From Cypionkella aquatica (GTDB taxonomy: Bacteria > Pseudomonadota > Alphaproteobacteria > Rhodobacterales > Rhodobacteraceae), in NCBI RefSeq assembly GCF_030161095.1, contig NZ_BSPP01000002.1:62001-126000 (forward strand): a stretch of DNA of 64,000 bases, given 5' to 3'. Numbering within the stretch: position 1 is the stretch's first letter; the number at the start of each line of letters is the position of its first letter. Below are positions 2,851 through 62,444 of this stretch, piece by piece. The notes under the pieces are model-generated. The model did no database searches and was not told the DNA's origin. It saw only the letters and a program-made list of their open reading frames with translations. The translations under genes were made by a program, and so were the position numbers.

Positions 2851-3016
2851 GGCAGCGATGCCGGCGATATTCGGCGCGTCCTGCAAGCTCTCATTCCAGA
2901 CGCGACGGACCCGAGGGGGAGTGGTGGGCCAAAACTTCACTCCCCCTTAATTCCCTTCCAGCAAGTTGTGCCAAGACAGTTGCATCGCGGCGCGATTTTT
3001 CGCATGTAGGGGCCGT

Positions 3017-3093
3017 GGCTCCGTAGCTCAGCCGGATAGAGCGACGGTTTCCTAAACCGTAGGCCGCGTGTTCGAATCACGCCGGGGTCACCA
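3017..3093 (+). tRNA. tRNA-Arg (anticodon CCT)
   Basis: A 77-nt cloverleaf with encoded CCA. The acceptor stem GGCTCCG pairs with CGGGGTC (two G-U pairs). The D-arm begins TAGCTCAGCCGGATAGAGC. The anticodon stem ACGGT/ACCGT encloses the loop TTCCTAA, giving anticodon CCT (AGG codons). The T-arm is GCGTG TTCGAAT CACGC. Confidence 0.97.
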
Positions 3094-3148: not shown

Positions 3149-3169
3149 TTTGTGGCGTTGCAAAGCCGC

Positions 3170-5668
<2,499 letters not shown>

Positions 5669-52134: not shown

Positions 52135-52283
52135 GCACGATCGGCGTGTGGGTGGGTTGCTTTGTTGCCTGCGAATCGGGCGGTTGGGGTGCTGATCTGC
52201 GGCGATTTGGGGCGGCGTCTTTGGCGTGTTCAGACTGGTCGCAAATGATCTATCGCGACTCGGTCGCCCGTGTTTTAATCGCT

Positions 52284-52455
52284 GTGTAAGGTGCCATCCG
52301 CAAGGGTGGAGAATTGGGAAGCCGGGGCATATCCGGCGCTGCCCCCGCAACGGTGATGAGACGTAACGTGTGACAGGAGGCCACTGAGGCGCAAGCTTTG
52401 GGAAGGTGTCGCGCGGGCCGAAGGGCCAGTCTTGCAGCCCGGAAACCAGCCTTAC
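52284..52455 (+). ncRNA. Cobalamin (AdoCbl-type) riboswitch aptamer
   Basis: All core blocks of the B12 riboswitch are present in order. The P1 5' strand GTAAGG (52286-52291) pairs with CCTTAC (52450-52455). GAATTGGGAAGCCGGGGC (52311-52328) precedes CCGGCGCTGCCCCCGCAACG (52333-52352). GCCACTG (52380-52386) and TTTGGGAAGG (52397-52406) follow. The B12 box AGCCCGGAAACCAGCC (52436-52451) ends the aptamer. It reads in the direction of the Rieske oxygenase gene, whose start is 88 nt downstream, and no other gene lies between. Confidence 0.93.
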
Positions 52456-52496
52456 GACGGAAAGACCAGCCTAAGGCCGGGCGTGCGCGCCGGCTT
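52449..52496 (+). promoter_or_regulatory. Expression platform of the cobalamin riboswitch
   Basis: GCCTTA (52449-52454), which includes the 3' strand of P1, can pair instead with TAAGGC (52472-52477). TAAGGC overlaps the left arm of another hairpin: AAGGCCGGGCG (52473-52483) with CGCCGGCTT (52488-52496). Binding of cobalamin should close P1, free TAAGGC and favour the second, GC-rich hairpin. Without cobalamin the first pairing would block it. This is the layout of an OFF switch. The second hairpin has no U-run, so whether it stops transcription or translation is open. Confidence 0.65.
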
Positions 52497-52543
52497 GCCA
52501 ATGCAACTGTCCCCGCGGGAGGCGTGGACCTACGAGGTGCCAG

Positions 52544-53782
52544 ATGTTGAATCCCGCTGAAATCTACGCTGAACTGGGTGCGCGCCGGAAGGATTACGCG
52601 CTGAGCCATGCGCTTTACTGCGATGAGGGCGTGTACAACGCTGATCTTGAGCAGATATTTTACCGCGAATGGCTGTTTGCGGCCCCTGCGGCGGCATTGC
52701 CGAAAAACGGCTCGTTCATGACGTTGCAGATTGGCGCTTATCCGGTGGTGATCACGCGGGGCAATGACGGAATGATCCGGGCATTTCACAACGTCTGCCG
52801 CCATCGCGGTCAGCGGCTGTGCGCCAAGGAAACCGGATCTTCGCCGAAGCTGGTTTGCCCTTACCATCAGTGGACCTACGATCTGGACGGTAAGCTGCAA
52901 TATGCCCGCGATATGCAGGAAGGCTTTGATCCCAGCCAGCACAGCCTGAAGAAACTGCATTGCGTAGATCTGGGCGGCATGGTGTTCATTTGCCTCGCGC
53001 AGGTGCCGCCGCCGATTGCGGAACTGGCCAAGACGGCAATGACCTATCTTGCGCCCTCGGGATTGAAGGAGGCCAAAGTGGCGTTTTCTTCGACCATCGT
53101 GGAAAATGGCAACTGGAAGCTGGTGATCGAAAACAACCGCGAGTGTTATCACTGCGGCGGCGCGCATCCGTCTTTGTGCCGGACGTTCTCGGACAACCCG
53201 AAAATCGGTGCGATGAACGGGCCAACTGAGGCCAGCGACGAGATTTTGGCGCATTGGACGCGGTGTGAGGCCGCAGGGCTGCCGTCGCGCTTTACCCATG
53301 ATGCGGCGATGCAATGGCGGCTGGCGCGGGTGCCGTTGCTGAATAATGCCGAAAGCTACACGATGGATACCAAGGCGGCAGTGGCCAAGCGTATGGGCGC
53401 GATGCCGTTCAATGATGCGGGCAGCTTGCTGTTCTATCACTACCCGAACACCTGGAACCATTTCTTGGGCGATCACGCAATCACGTTCCGGGTGCTGCCG
53501 ATCTCGGCCACGGAAACGCAGGTGACGACGACCTGGCTGGTGCATAAGGACGCGGTTGAGGGTGTGGACTATGAATTGCCGCGTTTGACTGACGTGTGGA
53601 TGCACACCAATGACGAAGATCGTCAGGTGGTAGAGGAAAACCAGAAGGGCATCCTGTCACCAGCCTATGAGCCCGGCCCCTACTCGACGATTCAGGAAGA
53701 GGGCGTGATCCAGTTTGTGGATTGGTATTGCAAAACCATGACCGAGCGCATGGCCCCCAAACCCGCGATGGCGGCGGAGTAG
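52544..53782 (+). CDS. gbcA: Rieske non-heme iron oxygenase, glycine-betaine monooxygenase-like (GbcA-like)
   Basis: A 412-residue oxygenase alpha subunit. The N-terminal Rieske domain binds 2Fe-2S through FHNVCRHRGQRLCAKE (Cys-x-His) and LVCPYHQWTYDLDG (Cys-x2-His). The catalytic domain binds mononuclear iron in ENNRECYHCGGAHPSL (two His). The ENNRECYHC block and the dedicated reductase next door match the GbcAB/choline-monooxygenase-like group that oxidatively demethylates glycine betaine to dimethylglycine and formaldehyde. Other quaternary amines such as stachydrine or carnitine cannot be ruled out. GAGGTG lies four bases before the ATG. The gene is led by a cobalamin riboswitch, which is unusual for this family. 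Confidence 0.82.
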   Translation: MLNPAEIYAELGARRKDYALSHALYCDEGVYNADLEQIFYREWLFAAPAAALPKNGSFMTLQIGAYPVVITRGNDGMIRAFHNVCRHRGQRLCAKETGSSPKLVCPYHQWTYDLDGKLQYARDMQEGFDPSQHSLKKLHCVDLGGMVFICLAQVPPPIAELAKTAMTYLAPSGLKEAKVAFSSTIVENGNWKLVIENNRECYHCGGAHPSLCRTFSDNPKIGAMNGPTEASDEILAHWTRCEAAGLPSRFTHDAAMQWRLARVPLLNNAESYTMDTKAAVAKRMGAMPFNDAGSLLFYHYPNTWNHFLGDHAITFRVLPISATETQVTTTWLVHKDAVEGVDYELPRLTDVWMHTNDEDRQVVEENQKGILSPAYEPGPYSTIQEEGVIQFVDWYCKTMTERMAPKPAMAAE

Positions 53783-53785
53783 ATC

Positions 53786-54877
53786 ATGGCGAAGAAAAGC
53801 CTGAACTGGGAAGTCGCACCTTGGAACGACAGCCAGATGCTGGAATGTGCGATGGTGGTGCCGGAAAATGACGACACCGCCAGCTTTACCTTCCGCGCGC
53901 CGAACGGGGCTTGGTTTGACTATCAGCCGGGGCAGTTCATCACGCTAGATTTGCCGGTGGACCCGAAAAAGGGTGCGAAGGGCAATGTGCAGCGCACCTA
54001 TACGATTTCGTCGTCGCCCTCGCGGCCGCTGTCGATCTCGATCACGGTGAAGGCGCAAAGCACCAGCATTGGCACGCGCTGGATGTTGGACAATCTGAAA
54101 CCGGGGATGCAGATCAAGGCGTTTGGTCCGGCGGGGATTTTCAGTTTCCATCGCCATCCGGCGCAGAAATATCTGATGATCTCGGCGGGGTCGGGCATTA
54201 CGCCGATGATGTCGATGACGACATGGGCGTGGGATTCGGGGCAGATGCCGGACATCGTGTTCGTGCATGCCGCCAAGCGCCCGTCGGAAATCATCTTCCG
54301 CGAGCGGCTGGAGCAGTTTGCCAACCGGGTTCCGGGGTTGCAGTTGCGCTTTACGGTCGAAGAGTCGGACCCGTTCCGGGCTTGGCCGGGGTATAAGGGG
54401 CGCTTGAGCCAGATCATGCTGGGCCTGATGGCACCGGATTATCTGGAGCGCGAAGTGTTCTGCTGCGGACCCGAGCCGTTCATGCAGGCGGTGCGCGAGA
54501 TGCTGCAAAGCCTTGGCTATGACATGTCGCGCTATCATCAGGAAAGCTTTGGGCTGGCGGTCTCGACCGAGGCTGATGCGCCGGTGATCGACGATGTGAC
54601 GCCGGGCGAGGGTGTGAAGGCCGAGATTACCTTTGCCGACAGTGGCTTGGTGGTGGGCTGTGGTGAGACCGATACGGTTTTGGCGGTTGCCAAGCGGTCT
54701 GGGCTGAACATTCCATCGGGCTGCACCTTTGGTCTGTGCGGGACATGCAAGATCAAGAAACTCTCAGGCGAGGTGCATATGGTGCACAACGGCGGGATTT
54801 CGGATGATGATATTGCCGAGGGCTATATCCTTGCCTGCTGTTCCAACCCAATGGGCAAGATTTCGGTGGCGGTTTAG
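53786..54877 (+). CDS. gbcB: Ferredoxin-NAD(P)H reductase partner of the Rieske oxygenase (GbcB-like)
   Basis: A 363-residue electron-transfer protein with two parts. An FNR-like flavin reductase (about 30-255) shows FDYQPGQFITLDL, QRTYTISSSPSRP (flavin), MISAGSGITPMMSM and FCCGPEPFMQAV (nucleotide binding). A C-terminal plant-type 2Fe-2S ferredoxin (about 275-363) shows CTFGLCGTCKIKKLSGEV and a final Cys in ILACCSNP. It passes electrons from NAD(P)H to the oxygenase. The start is 3 bp after the oxygenase stop, so both genes lie on the riboswitch-controlled message. Confidence 0.86.
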   Translation: MAKKSLNWEVAPWNDSQMLECAMVVPENDDTASFTFRAPNGAWFDYQPGQFITLDLPVDPKKGAKGNVQRTYTISSSPSRPLSISITVKAQSTSIGTRWMLDNLKPGMQIKAFGPAGIFSFHRHPAQKYLMISAGSGITPMMSMTTWAWDSGQMPDIVFVHAAKRPSEIIFRERLEQFANRVPGLQLRFTVEESDPFRAWPGYKGRLSQIMLGLMAPDYLEREVFCCGPEPFMQAVREMLQSLGYDMSRYHQESFGLAVSTEADAPVIDDVTPGEGVKAEITFADSGLVVGCGETDTVLAVAKRSGLNIPSGCTFGLCGTCKIKKLSGEVHMVHNGGISDDDIAEGYILACCSNPMGKISVAV

Positions 54878-57701: not shown

Positions 57702-58400
57702 TCAGACCGAAACTTCGGCGCGCAGATCTTCGCGGGTGAAATCGGCGCGCGCGCCGGATTTGGCGACAGCGCCGCGGCGCAGCACATAGAAATGGTCGGC
57801 AAGGTTATAGGCGAAGTCGAAGTATTGCTCGACAAGGATGATCGCCATGTCGCCTTTGCCCTTCAGGTATTCGATGACTCGGCCAATTTGCTGAATGATG
57901 TTGGGCTGGATGCCCTCGGTCGGCTCGTCCAGCAGCAGGACTTTCGGGCGCATGATCATGGCGCGGGCGATGGCGAGTTGCTGTTGTTGGCCGCCGGAAA
58001 GATCGCCGCCACGGCGGGCGGTCATGTCTTTCAGCACCGGGAACAGGTCGTAGATTTCCTGCGGGATTTTATGATCGGGTTTGGGGAGGAGGGCGAAGGC
58101 AGTTTCCAGGTTTTCTTTGACGGTCAGCAGCGGGAAGATCATACGGCCTTGCGGCACAACGGCGAGGCCGCGCTGGGCCATGTCTTGCGGGCGGAGTTTG
58201 CCCAAGGTTTCGCCATCCAGTTCGACCGTGCCCGCAGAGCGCATATGGGTGCCTGCGAGGGCTTTCAGAAAGCTGGTTTTGCCGACGCCATTGGTGCCCA
58301 TGATACAGGTGACTTCGCCTGCTTTGGCGGTGAAATCAATGCCGTGCAAGATTTGTGAGCCGCCGTAGTGCAGGGTGAGGCCTTGGGTTTTGATCATCAT
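57702..58400 (-). CDS. urtE: Urea ABC transporter ATP-binding protein UrtE
   Basis: A 232-residue LivF-type ATPase. Walker A IMGTNGVGKTSFLKAL, QGRMIFPLLTVKENLETAF (Q-loop region), signature LSGGQQQQLAIARAMI and Walker B VLLLDEPTEGIQPNII. The GRMIFP-LLTVKENL segment and position as last gene of urtABCDE distinguish it from branched-chain amino acid LivF. Paired with UrtD it energises urea uptake. It overlaps urtD by 4 bp. Confidence 0.95.
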   Translation of the reverse strand: MMIKTQGLTLHYGGSQILHGIDFTAKAGEVTCIMGTNGVGKTSFLKALAGTHMRSAGTVELDGETLGKLRPQDMAQRGLAVVPQGRMIFPLLTVKENLETAFALLPKPDHKIPQEIYDLFPVLKDMTARRGGDLSGGQQQQLAIARAMIMRPKVLLLDEPTEGIQPNIIQQIGRVIEYLKGKGDMAIILVEQYFDFAYNLADHFYVLRRGAVAKSGARADFTREDLRAEVSV

Positions 58401-59140
58401 CCGCGCCCTAAATAGACGTCAATCACGTCTTGGTTTTTCGTCACATGGTCAAGCGAGCCTTCGGCCAGAACCGAGCCTTCGTGCAGCACTGTCACGCGGC
58501 AATTCAGGCGGCGCACAAATTCCATATCGTGTTCGACCACCACCACCGCGCGGGTTTTGGCGATATCGACCAAGAGTTCGGTGGTCTTTTCGCGTTCCGC
58601 CAGCGTCATGCCTGCGGCGGGTTCGTCGACCAGCAAAAGGCGAGGCTCTTGCGCCAGCAACATGGCGATTTCCAGCCATTGCTTTTGGCCGTGGCTAAGC
58701 TCGCCCGCTTTGCGCGGCAAGTGATCTGCGAGGCCGACTTGCTGCGCCAGTGCGGTGATGCGGTCAAGGTCGGGGCCTTTGACGCGCCAGCCCAGCACCC
58801 GCCACGGGCTGCGGGCGGCTTTCAGGGCAAGGGTGAGGTTTTCTGTCACCGTCTGGTCTTCAAACACCGTGGGGCGCTGGAATTTGCGGCCCACACCTGC
58901 GCGGGCGATTTTGGCTTCGGAGAGTTTCAGCAGCGAGGCGGATTTCTCGCCAAAGGTGACGGTGCCGCTGTCGGGTTTGGTTTTGCCGGTGACGATATCC
59001 ATGAAAGTGGATTTGCCCGCGCCATTGGGGCCGATGATGGCGCGGAGTTCGGCAGGGCCAATCGAGAAGGTCAGGTTGTTGATGGCGCGGAAGCCATCGA
59101 AGCTGACGGTGACGCCGGAGACTTCGAGAAGTTGGCTCAT
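58397..59140 (-). CDS. urtD: Urea ABC transporter ATP-binding protein UrtD
   Basis: A 247-residue LivG-type ATPase. Walker A IIGPNGAGKSTFMDIVTGK, RKFQRPTVFEDQTVTENL, a signature-like LSHGQKQWLEIAMLL (typical of UrtD, with SHGQ instead of SGGQ) and Walker B LLLVDEPAAGMTLAE. It overlaps urtC and urtE by 4 bp each, so urtCDE is tightly coupled. Confidence 0.95.
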   Translation of the reverse strand: MSQLLEVSGVTVSFDGFRAINNLTFSIGPAELRAIIGPNGAGKSTFMDIVTGKTKPDSGTVTFGEKSASLLKLSEAKIARAGVGRKFQRPTVFEDQTVTENLTLALKAARSPWRVLGWRVKGPDLDRITALAQQVGLADHLPRKAGELSHGQKQWLEIAMLLAQEPRLLLVDEPAAGMTLAEREKTTELLVDIAKTRAVVVVEHDMEFVRRLNCRVTVLHEGSVLAEGSLDHVTKNQDVIDVYLGRG

Positions 59141-60360
59141 TCCAGCGCCTCTTTCTCTTGCAGCGATCCTTGGTCTGGGCCGAGGGGGGCGCCTTTGCGG
59201 TCTGGAGCGTGAAAGCCTGCAAAGCGGTCAAACAAGCCGCCGATGCCTTTGGGGGCGAACAGGGTAACGCAGACGAAGGCGGCCCCGAGCAGGACTTGCC
59301 ACCAATCAACCCAGTTGATCGTCATGAACCCCAGCGGGATCGAGGGGGCGCGGCCACCGGTGAACCAACTGGACAGCAGCGAGACGACAGCGGCCCCGAT
59401 GACGGCACCGTACAGGCGGCCACGGCCCCCGATGGCGACCCAGACCGCGAGATAGATCGAGGCGATGGGCGCGAGTTCGGCGGGGTTGATGATGCCAGCT
59501 TGCGGGTAATAGAGCGCGCCTGCGATGGCGGTGATGATGGCGGTGAGGGTGAAGACGAACAGTTTGTAGCCTTCGACCGAGTAGCCAAGGAAGCGGACGC
59601 GGGCTTCGTCATCGCGGATGGCGCGGATCACCGAGCCGAATTTGCCGGAGGTGATCCATGTCAGGGCGAGGTAGGCCAGCGCGAGGGCGGCGGCAGAGGC
59701 CCAGAAGAACCACAGGCTGATGCTGTCTTGGCTGGTGGCGTCGAGGCCGGGGATGTTTTGCAGGCCAGAGAGGCCGTTGTTACCGCGCAGGCCAGAGTCG
59801 TTCTGGAACAGGTAGAGGGCGAGGGCGAGGGTCATCGCTTGGGTCAGGATTGAGAGGTAAACGCCTGTGACGCGGCTGCGGAAGGCGAGCCAGCCGAAGA
59901 TCAGGGCGAGCAGGCCGGGGAGAGCTATGACGAGGAACAGTTGCAGCGGCAGGCTGTGGGCGAAGGCCCAGATCGTGGGCAAATCGGATGCCCCGACGAC
60001 GCCGAAGATTTGGGAAGCGATGCCTTGCTGGATTTCCTCGGGCGTGGCGGGGAGGCCGGAATTGGCCAGTGAGGTGATGACGATTTCCTCGGTGCGGGCA
60101 TACATCAGCCACATGCCGATCATATAGCCACCAAGCGCGAAGAAGGCCATGTGGCCGAGCGACAGGATGCCTGCATAGCCCCAGATCAGGTCCATCGCCA
60201 GCGCGGCGAGGCAGAGGCAGAGGGTCTTGCCGAGGGTTTTCACGAAGGAGGTCGACATCAGCCCGTAGTGGGCGGCGAGGGTGGTGGCGAAGGTGAACAG
60301 CGCAAGGCAGATCAGGAAGATCAGCAGTGACGGGGTGCGGAGGAAGAAGCTGCGGGTCAT
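59137..60360 (-). CDS. urtC: Urea ABC transporter permease UrtC
   Basis: A 407-residue LivM-type permease with about ten helices. It has LAALAMDLIWGYAGILSLGHMAFFALGGYMIGMWLM, the long UrtC insertion with YLSILTQAMTLALAL and LSGLQNIPG, and IRAIRDDEARVRFLGYSVEGYKLFVFTL, the coupling-helix region. The C-terminus has FAPKGIGGLFDRF. It is separated from urtB by 85 bp that hold a GC-rich hairpin with a family B repeat. Confidence 0.95.
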   Translation of the reverse strand: MTRSFFLRTPSLLIFLICLALFTFATTLAAHYGLMSTSFVKTLGKTLCLCLAALAMDLIWGYAGILSLGHMAFFALGGYMIGMWLMYARTEEIVITSLANSGLPATPEEIQQGIASQIFGVVGASDLPTIWAFAHSLPLQLFLVIALPGLLALIFGWLAFRSRVTGVYLSILTQAMTLALALYLFQNDSGLRGNNGLSGLQNIPGLDATSQDSISLWFFWASAAALALAYLALTWITSGKFGSVIRAIRDDEARVRFLGYSVEGYKLFVFTLTAIITAIAGALYYPQAGIINPAELAPIASIYLAVWVAIGGRGRLYGAVIGAAVVSLLSSWFTGGRAPSIPLGFMTINWVDWWQVLLGAAFVCVTLFAPKGIGGLFDRFAGFHAPDRKGAPLGPDQGSLQEKEALE

Positions 60361-60377
60361 TTGGATGCCTTTACGCA

Positions 60378-60420
60378 GCGGGGGCCAGCCCCCGCACCCC
60401 CGGGATATTTATGAACAGAT
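60378..60420 (-). repeat. Hairpin plus family B repeat between urtB and urtC
   Basis: GCGGGGGC/GCCCCCGC (60378-60385 with 60388-60395) is an 8-bp stem with a 2-nt loop. It is followed by CCCCCGGGATATTTATGAAC, a copy of the ATATTT element seen at 41685 and 48787. It lies inside the urt operon and could reduce read-through into urtCDE or act as a processing site. Confidence 0.65.
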
Positions 60421-60445
60421 GAAAATGGAAAGCGGGGCTGCATGA

Positions 60446-62377
60446 TCAATCTCCTGCCGCGCGGCCTTTGAGGGCGATGATCCCTCGGGGGCGGAATTGG
60501 ATGAACAGGATGATGAACAGGATCATGTAGGTTTGGGCGGCGAGGGTGTTTGAGGGGTTGAACACCTCGATCAGCTTTTGCAGGCCGCCGATCATGGTCG
60601 CGCCTGCAAGTGCCCCCCAGATGTTGCCGACGCCGCCGACCACCACGGTCATGAAGCTTTGCACGATGTAGTCGGTGCCGAGTTCGGAGGTGACTTTGGC
60701 GAAGAGGCCAATGGCGACGCCCGCGATGCCTGCGATGCCAGAGCCAAGGCCGAAGGTCAGCATGTTGATACGGTCGGGGTTGATGCCCATGGAGGCCGCC
60801 ATGGTGGGGTTTTGGGTGACGGCGCGAACCTCAAGCCCCAGGCGGGTGCGTTTCATCAGCCAGAGGAAGAAGGTGAGGAACAGCAGGGCGAGGACGAAGA
60901 TGGCGATGCGGATGTAGCTGATCGAGACCACGTCGTTGAGAGTCAGGGCGCCGTCGAGCCATGCTGGGGAGGTCAATGGTCGGGCTTGGGTGCCGAAGAC
61001 GTTTTTCAGGATTTGTTGTAGTGCGATCGAGATGCCGAAGGTGGCGAGCAGGGTTTCCAGCGGGCGCTTGTAGAGGTGGCGGATCACCAGACGCTCCATC
61101 GCGACGCCTGCGGCGAAGGTGACGGCGAAGGCCAGCGGCAGGGCGATCAGAATCGAGGCGGTGTAGTTGGGGACGTAAAGCTGCACGACATAGCCGGTGT
61201 AAGCGCCCATGGTGATGAACTCGCCATGCGCCATGTTGATGACGCCCATCACGCCGAAGGTGATGGCGAGGCCGATGGCGGCAAGGAAGTAGATCGAGGC
61301 GAGCGAGAGGCCATCAAGGGCGAGGTCGGCGGCCTGCATGGCGGCGACTTTGTGGCCGATGGATTTCAGGGCTGCGGCGGCTGCGGTTGTGACGCCGGGG
61401 TCGGGCTCGATATAGATGTCGTAGAAGTGGTGGGCTTTGAGGGCGGCGGCGGCTTCGTCATCGGTGGCGGCTTGCGGGACGGTGCCTGCGGCTTCCAGCG
61501 CTGTGTAGGCGCGGTCGCGGGCGGCTTGGGTGTTGAGATCAGCGAGGGGGATGCCGCCGACCGCGCCGCCTGCAAGATTGGCGATCAGGGCGGTGCGGGC
61601 GGCCTCGATGGTCAGGCGGGCTGGGGCGAGGTTGGCGGAAACCAGCAGGTCATAGGCTTCGGCCTCGGACAGGTCGCGGCCGGGTTTGAGTTCTTGGGCG
61701 ATGTTGGCGGTTGGCGGTTCGGCGGCTGCCAGCTTTTTTGTGGCCAGCAGGGGGTTGAGCGCGCCGCGCAAATCGAGGCCGAGGTCTGCGCCAAAGCTGT
61801 TGATGGCTGCGATGCGGGCGGTTGACTCGGGGTCGAAGCGCAGGGTCAGCAGGCGTTCGAGGCGTTGTTTTTGCGCCTTCAGTGTGGCGTCAGGTTCGTT
61901 GGTGATGGCGGCGCGGAGGGGGGCGAGGGCCTCGGGTTTGGGGTCTTTGGCAATGGAGTCGAGGGCTGCGGCGCGTTTGGCAGCATCAGGGTCCGACAGG
62001 GTGAATTGCACCAGAGCGGTGGCGATCATGCCGCGCACACCTGCGTTGGGTTTCAACTCGGTGATGTCGGATTTGGCGGCTTCGCCTGCGGGCGCGCCTG
62101 CCAGATCGGTGAGGGCGTAGCCACCTTCATTTGCGGTGATCAGAAAGAACAGGCCGTCGGATTTGCGGATGCCAAGGCCCTTATTCGCCCAAGCTTCCAG
62201 CACGGCGGCTGCGGTCGGATCGCCGCTGGCGCCCAAGGCGTCGATCACCGGGGCAATGGTCTGACGCGAGGCTTTTTCCACCAAAGCGGCGTTGGCGGTG
62301 AGGATTTCAGCGGCGGTTTCGGCGCGCAGCGGGGCGGCGCACAGCAGCGCGAGAAGGCAGGCCAGCAGGATGCGCAT
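60446..62377 (-). CDS. urtB: Urea ABC transporter permease UrtB
   Basis: A 643-residue LivH-type permease. A signal peptide (MRILLACLLALLCAAPLRAE) is followed by a large periplasmic helical domain (about 20-330) that is a hallmark of UrtB. The permease part has LASIYFLAAIGLAITFGVMGVINMAHGEFIMGAY-like features (ITFGVMGVINMAHGEFITMG), LYKRPLETLLATFGISIALQ and FGLGSGIAGIAGVAIGLF. The ATG at 62377 starts the signal peptide; the 12-codon extension is rejected. It lies 67 bp after urtA. Confidence 0.95.
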   Translation of the reverse strand: MRILLACLLALLCAAPLRAETAAEILTANAALVEKASRQTIAPVIDALGASGDPTAAAVLEAWANKGLGIRKSDGLFFLITANEGGYALTDLAGAPAGEAAKSDITELKPNAGVRGMIATALVQFTLSDPDAAKRAAALDSIAKDPKPEALAPLRAAITNEPDATLKAQKQRLERLLTLRFDPESTARIAAINSFGADLGLDLRGALNPLLATKKLAAAEPPTANIAQELKPGRDLSEAEAYDLLVSANLAPARLTIEAARTALIANLAGGAVGGIPLADLNTQAARDRAYTALEAAGTVPQAATDDEAAAALKAHHFYDIYIEPDPGVTTAAAAALKSIGHKVAAMQAADLALDGLSLASIYFLAAIGLAITFGVMGVINMAHGEFITMGAYTGYVVQLYVPNYTASILIALPLAFAVTFAAGVAMERLVIRHLYKRPLETLLATFGISIALQQILKNVFGTQARPLTSPAWLDGALTLNDVVSISYIRIAIFVLALLFLTFFLWLMKRTRLGLEVRAVTQNPTMAASMGINPDRINMLTFGLGSGIAGIAGVAIGLFAKVTSELGTDYIVQSFMTVVVGGVGNIWGALAGATMIGGLQKLIEVFNPSNTLAAQTYMILFIILFIQFRPRGIIALKGRAAGD

Positions 62378-62444
62378 GAGGATTCCGGGCGTGGGGAGGA
62401 GGGGAGGGGCCAATGGCCCCTCCGCATGTTTCAGTTGGGCGGTG

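Follow-up and report, generated by a model that had tools for sequence, protein, structure and literature searches.

The window analysed here is a stretch of 64,000 nucleotides (nt) of Cypionkella aquatica, a member of the Rhodobacteraceae (contig NZ_BSPP01000002.1, positions 62,001 to 126,000), in which a full-length cobalamin (vitamin B12) riboswitch stands directly before the genes for a Rieske oxygenase and its partner reductase. The parts of this locus, in window coordinates, are the following.

52272 to 52468, plus strand: cobalamin riboswitch aptamer, full length for RF00174 (cmscan, 102.6 bits, E 1.5e-24)
52469 to 52543, plus strand: putative expression platform, read from the sequence, with a candidate L13 hairpin at 52509-52529 (GTCCCCGCGGGAGGCGTGGAC) and a Shine-Dalgarno-like GAGG at 52534-52537
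52544 to 53782, plus strand: Rieske oxygenase, 412 amino acids, Group Vb type (the betaine N-demethylase kind; PF00355, PF00848, active-site motif and tree)
53786 to 54877, plus strand: NADH/FAD/2Fe-2S reductase, 363 amino acids, partner of the oxygenase (PF00970, PF00175, PF00111)

A sequence-only reading of this DNA had claimed a complete B12 aptamer leading straight into an oxygenase and a reductase with no gene between them, and both parts of the claim are borne out. The covariance search with the Rfam cobalamin model covers model positions 1-189 of 189 at a score far above the gathering score of 31.5, and the named boxes are in place: GTAAGG (52286-52291) with its partner CCTTAC (52450-52455), GCCACTG (52380-52386) and GGGAAGG (52400-52406). 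The oxygenase starts 75 nt past the aptamer with no intervening gene, and the reductase starts 3 nt past the oxygenase stop codon. The only other Rfam matches above threshold in the window are two tRNAs. The same aptamer was recovered by the whole-genome search (G000:C2:114272-114468) of the host genome G000, which comprises 4.04 Mb in 29 contigs and carries four cobalamin riboswitches.

The oxygenase and its reductase

The oxygenase carries the motif ENNRECYHC, and its residues N198, E200, C201, H203, C204, H208 and D359 align with the same residues of Stc2. H203, H208 and D359 make up the two-His-one-carboxylate site, E200 occupies the bridging position, the CxxC pair C201/C204 lies beside the iron site, and N198 is found where CntA has Tyr203, the CntA positions being mapped through the spacing of the E-C-x-H-C motif and not through alignment. 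According to two papers, an asparagine at this position marks clade Vb, the members of which demethylate glycine betaine and proline betaine (PMC7948474, PMC10952381). The Group Vb marker residues, the iron ligands and the equivalent of Stc2 Trp353 are invariant across 15 riboswitch-bearing homologues.

The description of the two proteins as GbcA-like and GbcB-like, also part of the sequence-only reading, stands as a statement of family kinship, since GbcA (NF058607) and GbcB are the best NCBIfam models, but not as an assignment: the equivalog cut-offs are 670 bits for the oxygenase model and 500 bits for the reductase model, whereas the proteins score 497.7 and 367.5 bits, and because both fall short we do not call the oxygenase GbcA. 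Its best solved relatives are 3n0q and the Stc2 entries 3vca and 4qup, and the proline betaine enzyme Stc2 is at least as good a guide to the probable substrate as GbcA.

Recurrence of the riboswitch before the oxygenase

Homologues of the oxygenase (E <= 1e-120) occupy 64 places in 61 of 295 Rhodobacteraceae genomes, and these 61 genomes hold 223 cobalamin riboswitches in total. A riboswitch lies upstream of 25 of the 64 oxygenases, on the same strand and at a distance of 64-146 nt; this distance is counted to the first matched residue of the protein, in several loci residue 2-19 of the query, and not to a verified start codon. Outside the family, 9 of 380 other alphaproteobacteria have a homologue, with a riboswitch upstream in 5 of the 9. 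The survey of Rhodobacterales for this gene order, which had been put forward as a check, thus finds it recurrent and spread over many genera. Among the best 80 of a longer list of named loci, of which the closest belong to Cypionkella (oxygenase 93-94% identical), an nhmmer profile made from 33 riboswitches, the 25 positive controls among them, matches upstream of 32; the genera represented include Ruegeria, Shimia, Sulfitobacter, Roseibium, Hoeflea and Aminobacter, together with Rhizobium leucaenae and several Mesorhizobium.

On the oxygenase tree the riboswitch label needs 10 changes, compared with 23.1 in shuffles (0 of 500 shuffles as low), and is concentrated in two large groups rich in riboswitches, of which one surrounds the window and the other Ruegeria sp. 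TM1040. In 50 of 63 loci, as judged by a simple open reading frame (ORF) caller, and in 8 of 8 annotated Rhodobacterales plasmid loci, the oxygenase gene is followed by one for a reductase homologue, whereas the genes flanking the pair vary from locus to locus; riboswitch, oxygenase and reductase therefore appear to form the conserved unit. The ORF caller is a GC-frame heuristic that mis-called some strands and starts around the loci, and one of the clusters listed from it is antisense to the operon.

Because filter strictness differed between the three RF00174 searches (17, 44 and 8 genomes or records), a weak riboswitch was possibly missed, and two partial riboswitch-like matches (G238, 50 bits; L175, 36 bits) were scored as absent. 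The former is the stretch at locus L080, upstream of G238:C4:138571, which matches profile positions 5-116 before an unswitched oxygenase, that is, one lacking a riboswitch. Two of the nearest tree neighbours of this oxygenase bear riboswitches, and the stretch is perhaps a decayed copy.

Expression platform and direction of the switch

The GCGGG of the candidate L13 hairpin is potentially complementary to the CCCCGC loop of the aptamer, and loop-loop (kissing-loop, L5-L13) contact is a known OFF mechanism of cobalamin riboswitches. In homologous leaders a GCGGG within a hairpin is found no more than 62 nt before the start in 22 of 28 cases, compared with 2.5 expected from dinucleotide shuffles; the 28 come from the 34 riboswitch-oxygenase leaders then known (25 from the family, 3 of 4 from plasmids, 0 of 5 from outside the family), and the motif was picked after the L5 sequence had been inspected. 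The leader of Ruegeria sp. TM1040 has no GCGGG hairpin near the start. An L13-like hairpin near the start codon would fit an OFF switch, a direction that we only infer, because the motif was chosen with the aptamer loop in view and because the window leader, folded over its final 80 and 100 nt, prefers a different structure at minimum energy and does not choose the GCGGG hairpin.

Other cobalamin riboswitch targets in the same genomes

Familiar B12-free isozymes under cobalamin riboswitches include MetE and class I ribonucleotide reductase. MetH and nrdI were searched for in 40 of the 61 oxygenase genomes. The gene nrdI, which marks class Ib ribonucleotide reductase, turned up in 14 of the 40 and is preceded in 13 of these 14 by a cobalamin riboswitch at a distance of 332-376 nt; in G118, G026 and G092 the riboswitch-linked nrdI adjoins the oxygenase locus. 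A riboswitch on nrdI is the classical B12-free isozyme logic, here seen in relatives of the window. The MetH activation domain (PF02965) was matched in 15 of the 40, in one case only in part, and five of these 15 (G191, G118, G252, G046 and G092) have it no further than 5 kb from the oxygenase. Relative to the oxygenase, metH is downstream and codirectional in G118 and G191, upstream and codirectional in G252, and convergent in G046 and in Cereibacter azotoformans; in G092 it lies downstream behind its own riboswitch and is split into a homocysteine module followed by the rest. The order in G118 is riboswitch, oxygenase, reductase, homocysteine module, MetH, riboswitch, nrdH, nrdI, in which the MetH and the homocysteine module match PRK09490/TIGR02082, the MetH above the methionine synthase cut-offs. 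In the window genome neither NrdI nor PF02965 was found; its methionine synthase is presumably, for want of a PF02965 match, of the kind without that activation domain.

Several of these genomes carry further arrangements around cobalamin riboswitches. At locus L043 (G118:C214, 3208-5291) a riboswitch is followed by nrdH, nrdI and a core-MetE-like protein (PRK06520, above cut-off), which may be another methionine synthase of the regulon that works without B12. The 178 kb plasmid pORIO2 of C. azotoformans (L060, NZ_CP089968.1), typed as conjugative, has eight cobalamin riboswitches, some of them back to back, and with metH beside the oxygenase pair and cobalt energy-coupling factor (ECF) transporter genes it amounts to a plasmid-borne cobalamin regulon. 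Groups of several riboswitches, arranged in tandem or back to back over a few kb, occur in L102 (G092), G215:C30 and L093 (G139), and at L128, in a genome without CbiC, two are placed back to back (2851-3059, minus strand; 3164-3374, plus strand) upstream of the oxygenase.

CbiC served as a single marker gene for B12 synthesis and was found in 25 of the 33 genomes searched (28 of the 61 oxygenase genomes and 5 from outside the family). Seven of the 30 riboswitch-oxygenase genomes have no CbiC (G182, G026, G114, G205, G272, G163 and G670), each with a listed completeness of 99-100%, and the pair is therefore likely, on this one marker, to be retained by B12 scavengers.

A proposed substitute for corrinoid-dependent betaine demethylation

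The reading we favour, with a confidence slightly short of even, is that the two genes form a B12-responsive operon which substitutes for corrinoid-dependent betaine demethylation. In the proposed model, plentiful adenosylcobalamin, or a related corrinoid, would bind the leader RNA, loop-loop contact would stabilise the hairpin next to the ribosome-binding site, and neither protein would be made; when B12 is scarce, the operon would be expressed. Using O2 and NADH, the enzyme would then take an N-methyl group off a betaine, whether proline betaine, glycine betaine or a closely similar compound, and release formaldehyde; it would thereby stand in for the corrinoid-dependent methyltransferases of the MTTB family, which would be stalled without B12. 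The direction (OFF), the substrate and the identity of the pathway being replaced are each inferences. The isozyme logic, already suggested by the sequence-only reading, is partly supported by the recurrent link between riboswitch and oxygenase and by the riboswitch on the B12-free nrdI of relatives.

The MTTB family is present in all 30 riboswitch-oxygenase genomes (25 from the family and 5 from outside) compared with 34 of 40 genomes with only unswitched oxygenases (Fisher p 0.034), and the six oxygenase genomes that lack it are all without the riboswitch. One of these six, G046, lies inside the window clade among riboswitch-bearing relatives and has a divergent LysR gene and no riboswitch at the locus. 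Outside the Rhodobacteraceae, MTTB is found in 5 of 5 riboswitch-oxygenase genomes compared with 78 of 380 alphaproteobacteria overall (naive p 4e-4). The expected co-occurrence with corrinoid methyltransferases is thus observed, yet as proof of replacement, for which sets of 295 and 385 genomes were used, it was rejected: it is consistent with replacement but not decisive once kinship is allowed for.

Unswitched loci differ from switched ones in their surroundings. A divergent LysR gene of one cluster accompanies 17 of 39 unswitched loci and, by the ORF caller, stands beside 0 of 24 switched copies; G283, the sole switched locus in that cluster, is listed there on account of the LysR gene at another oxygenase copy, which is unswitched and lies 8 kb off. 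The same caller places a flavoenzyme resembling old yellow enzyme (OYE) close to 11 of the 39 unswitched loci and to none of the 24 switched ones.

A number of observations weigh against the favoured reading. The riboswitch is missing at 39 of the 64 Rhodobacteraceae loci, including those of the window-clade members G135, G252 and G046, and also at two copies on Paracoccus plasmids, and on the Phaeobacter gallaeciensis plasmid pGal_C110 a LysR gene and a riboswitch occur together, so that the two are not strict alternatives. Since MTTB is near universal in the Rhodobacteraceae (281 of 295 genomes), its co-occurrence there says little, and a tree-aware pairing test of the riboswitch/MTTB contrast gave at most three informative pairs, none of them significant. 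The three MTTB-family proteins analysed, out of four matches in the window genome, score above the cut-off of no substrate-specific model. The riboswitch-linked metH of relatives is itself B12-dependent and the regulon accordingly mixes B12-free substitutes with a B12-using enzyme, so that 'B12-free isozyme' does not span it. Finally, of the two Stc2 product contacts named in PMC10952381, Ala223 and Trp353, the latter is retained in the window oxygenase (W352) and the former is replaced by Gly222.

A broader version of the same idea, which is less likely than not, would make betaine demethylation the third arm of a B12-sparing riboswitch programme in alphaproteobacteria, beside ribonucleotide reduction and methionine synthesis, with the Rieske demethylase substituting directly for the corrinoid-dependent MTTB and with genomes that lose MTTB returning the oxygenase to a substrate-responsive LysR regulator. 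The metH neighbourhoods raise a different prospect, somewhat unlikely in our judgement, that the operon supplies one-carbon units for methionine under B12 shortage and is no stand-in for a corrinoid-dependent demethylase: betaine would yield formaldehyde, then methylene- and methyl-tetrahydrofolate, for a riboswitch-linked, self-reactivating MetH with its activation domain. The five genomes with that domain within 5 kb of the oxygenase and the metH adjoining the pair on pORIO2 would suit such a route, but PF02965 is missing from 17 of the 25 riboswitch-oxygenase genomes of the Rhodobacteraceae, that of the window among them, the window pair stands alone, and in G252 and G046 the oxygenase with an adjacent MetH is unswitched. 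It is improbable that the enzyme acts on another methylated amine or amino acid with a B12-dependent metabolism, the betaine link being family resemblance only. Both unmet equivalog cut-offs, the identity of 56% to Stc2 and the altered product-contact residue would be in keeping with another substrate, and, metH and nrdHI aside, no gene for transport or catabolism is shared by at least four loci with a clear bias towards switched ones; the Group Vb residues, iron ligands and Trp353 equivalent, invariant in the 15 riboswitch-bearing homologues, speak against this view.

Glycine feeds 5-aminolevulinate in alphaproteobacteria, and the sequence-only reading had offered as an alternative that betaine-derived glycine or one-carbon units feed B12 synthesis, with the riboswitch acting as feedback control. 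The window genome does probably make B12, as it has CbiC, flanked by two cobalamin riboswitches, in a cob-type region of contig C5, but the pair is kept in the 7 of 30 riboswitch-oxygenase genomes without this single marker, which makes B12 synthesis unlikely as the general reason for the pair; the alternative is weakened to the point of being very unlikely. That the riboswitch is a chance neighbour, or part of another transcript, is scarcely credible. It could draw on the 39 of 64 homologous loci that have no riboswitch just upstream; the conserved spacing, the lack of an intervening gene in the window, the varying flanking genes and the clustering of the label on the tree all contradict it, and the genome survey together with the tree (10 changes against 23.1) rules it out.

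What the arrangement would mean

Were the favoured reading true, B12 supply would decide, in common marine and soil bacteria, between corrinoid methyl transfer and O2-dependent, formaldehyde-releasing demethylation of betaines, which are abundant osmolytes and nitrogen sources. The short list of isozymes under cobalamin riboswitches would gain a pair, aerobic MTTB homologues a possible role, and the structure 3n0q, which bears only a putative name, both a function and a physiological signal. If the broader, third-arm version held as well, corrinoid-dependent betaine demethylation would be in regular aerobic use in these bacteria.

Elsewhere in the window (57702-62413, minus strand) lie genes for a pair of permease-like proteins and two ATP-binding cassette (ABC) ATP-binding proteins, which to the eye look like a transporter for urea or branched-chain amino acids.

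Relation to known systems

Rodionov and co-workers reportedly described in 2003 a B12 element before an oxygenase-reductase operon, 'ardX-frdX', in alphaproteobacteria; a literature search on the two names found no paper. Among the papers listed by the literature searches, judged by title and the start of the abstract, none deals with this riboswitch-oxygenase pair, and none identifies the pair as a Group Vb betaine demethylase or notes its MetH link or its CbiC-less occurrence. The arrangement itself may already be in print, in view of that 2003 survey and of PMC3766115, which covers 15 Rhodobacterales genomes with gene lists in a supplement.

In that paper 'isozymes of B12-dependent enzymes' are a named class of cobalamin riboswitch targets (PMC3766115). 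The window locus resembles such RF00174-controlled isozymes in its full aptamer, its candidate L13-like platform, its short operon and the nrdHI target of its relatives; it differs in that the target would be an O2-dependent N-demethylase with a presumed B12-dependent counterpart. Among enzymes, one close system is Stc2-Stc4, the stachydrine (proline betaine) N-demethylase of Sinorhizobium meliloti, whose oxygenase is identical to that of the window at 228 of 409 aligned residues (56%). The two systems share the same motif and the same oxygenase-reductase layout, whereas the two S. meliloti loci (L114 and L115) have no cobalamin riboswitch and have a divergent LysR-type gene upstream. The glycine betaine monooxygenases GbcA-GbcB and BmoA share the Group Vb class with the window oxygenase, as described in PMC7948474, but the window proteins remain under both equivalog cut-offs. 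Finally, 3n0q, deposited in the PDB only as 'Putative aromatic-ring hydroxylating dioxygenase', is identical to a megaplasmid protein of Ruegeria sp. TM1040 to which the window oxygenase is 58% identical (237/406). The TM1040 gene belongs to the second riboswitch-rich clade and its leader differs by the missing GCGGG hairpin, but, like the window gene, it stands directly behind a cobalamin riboswitch.

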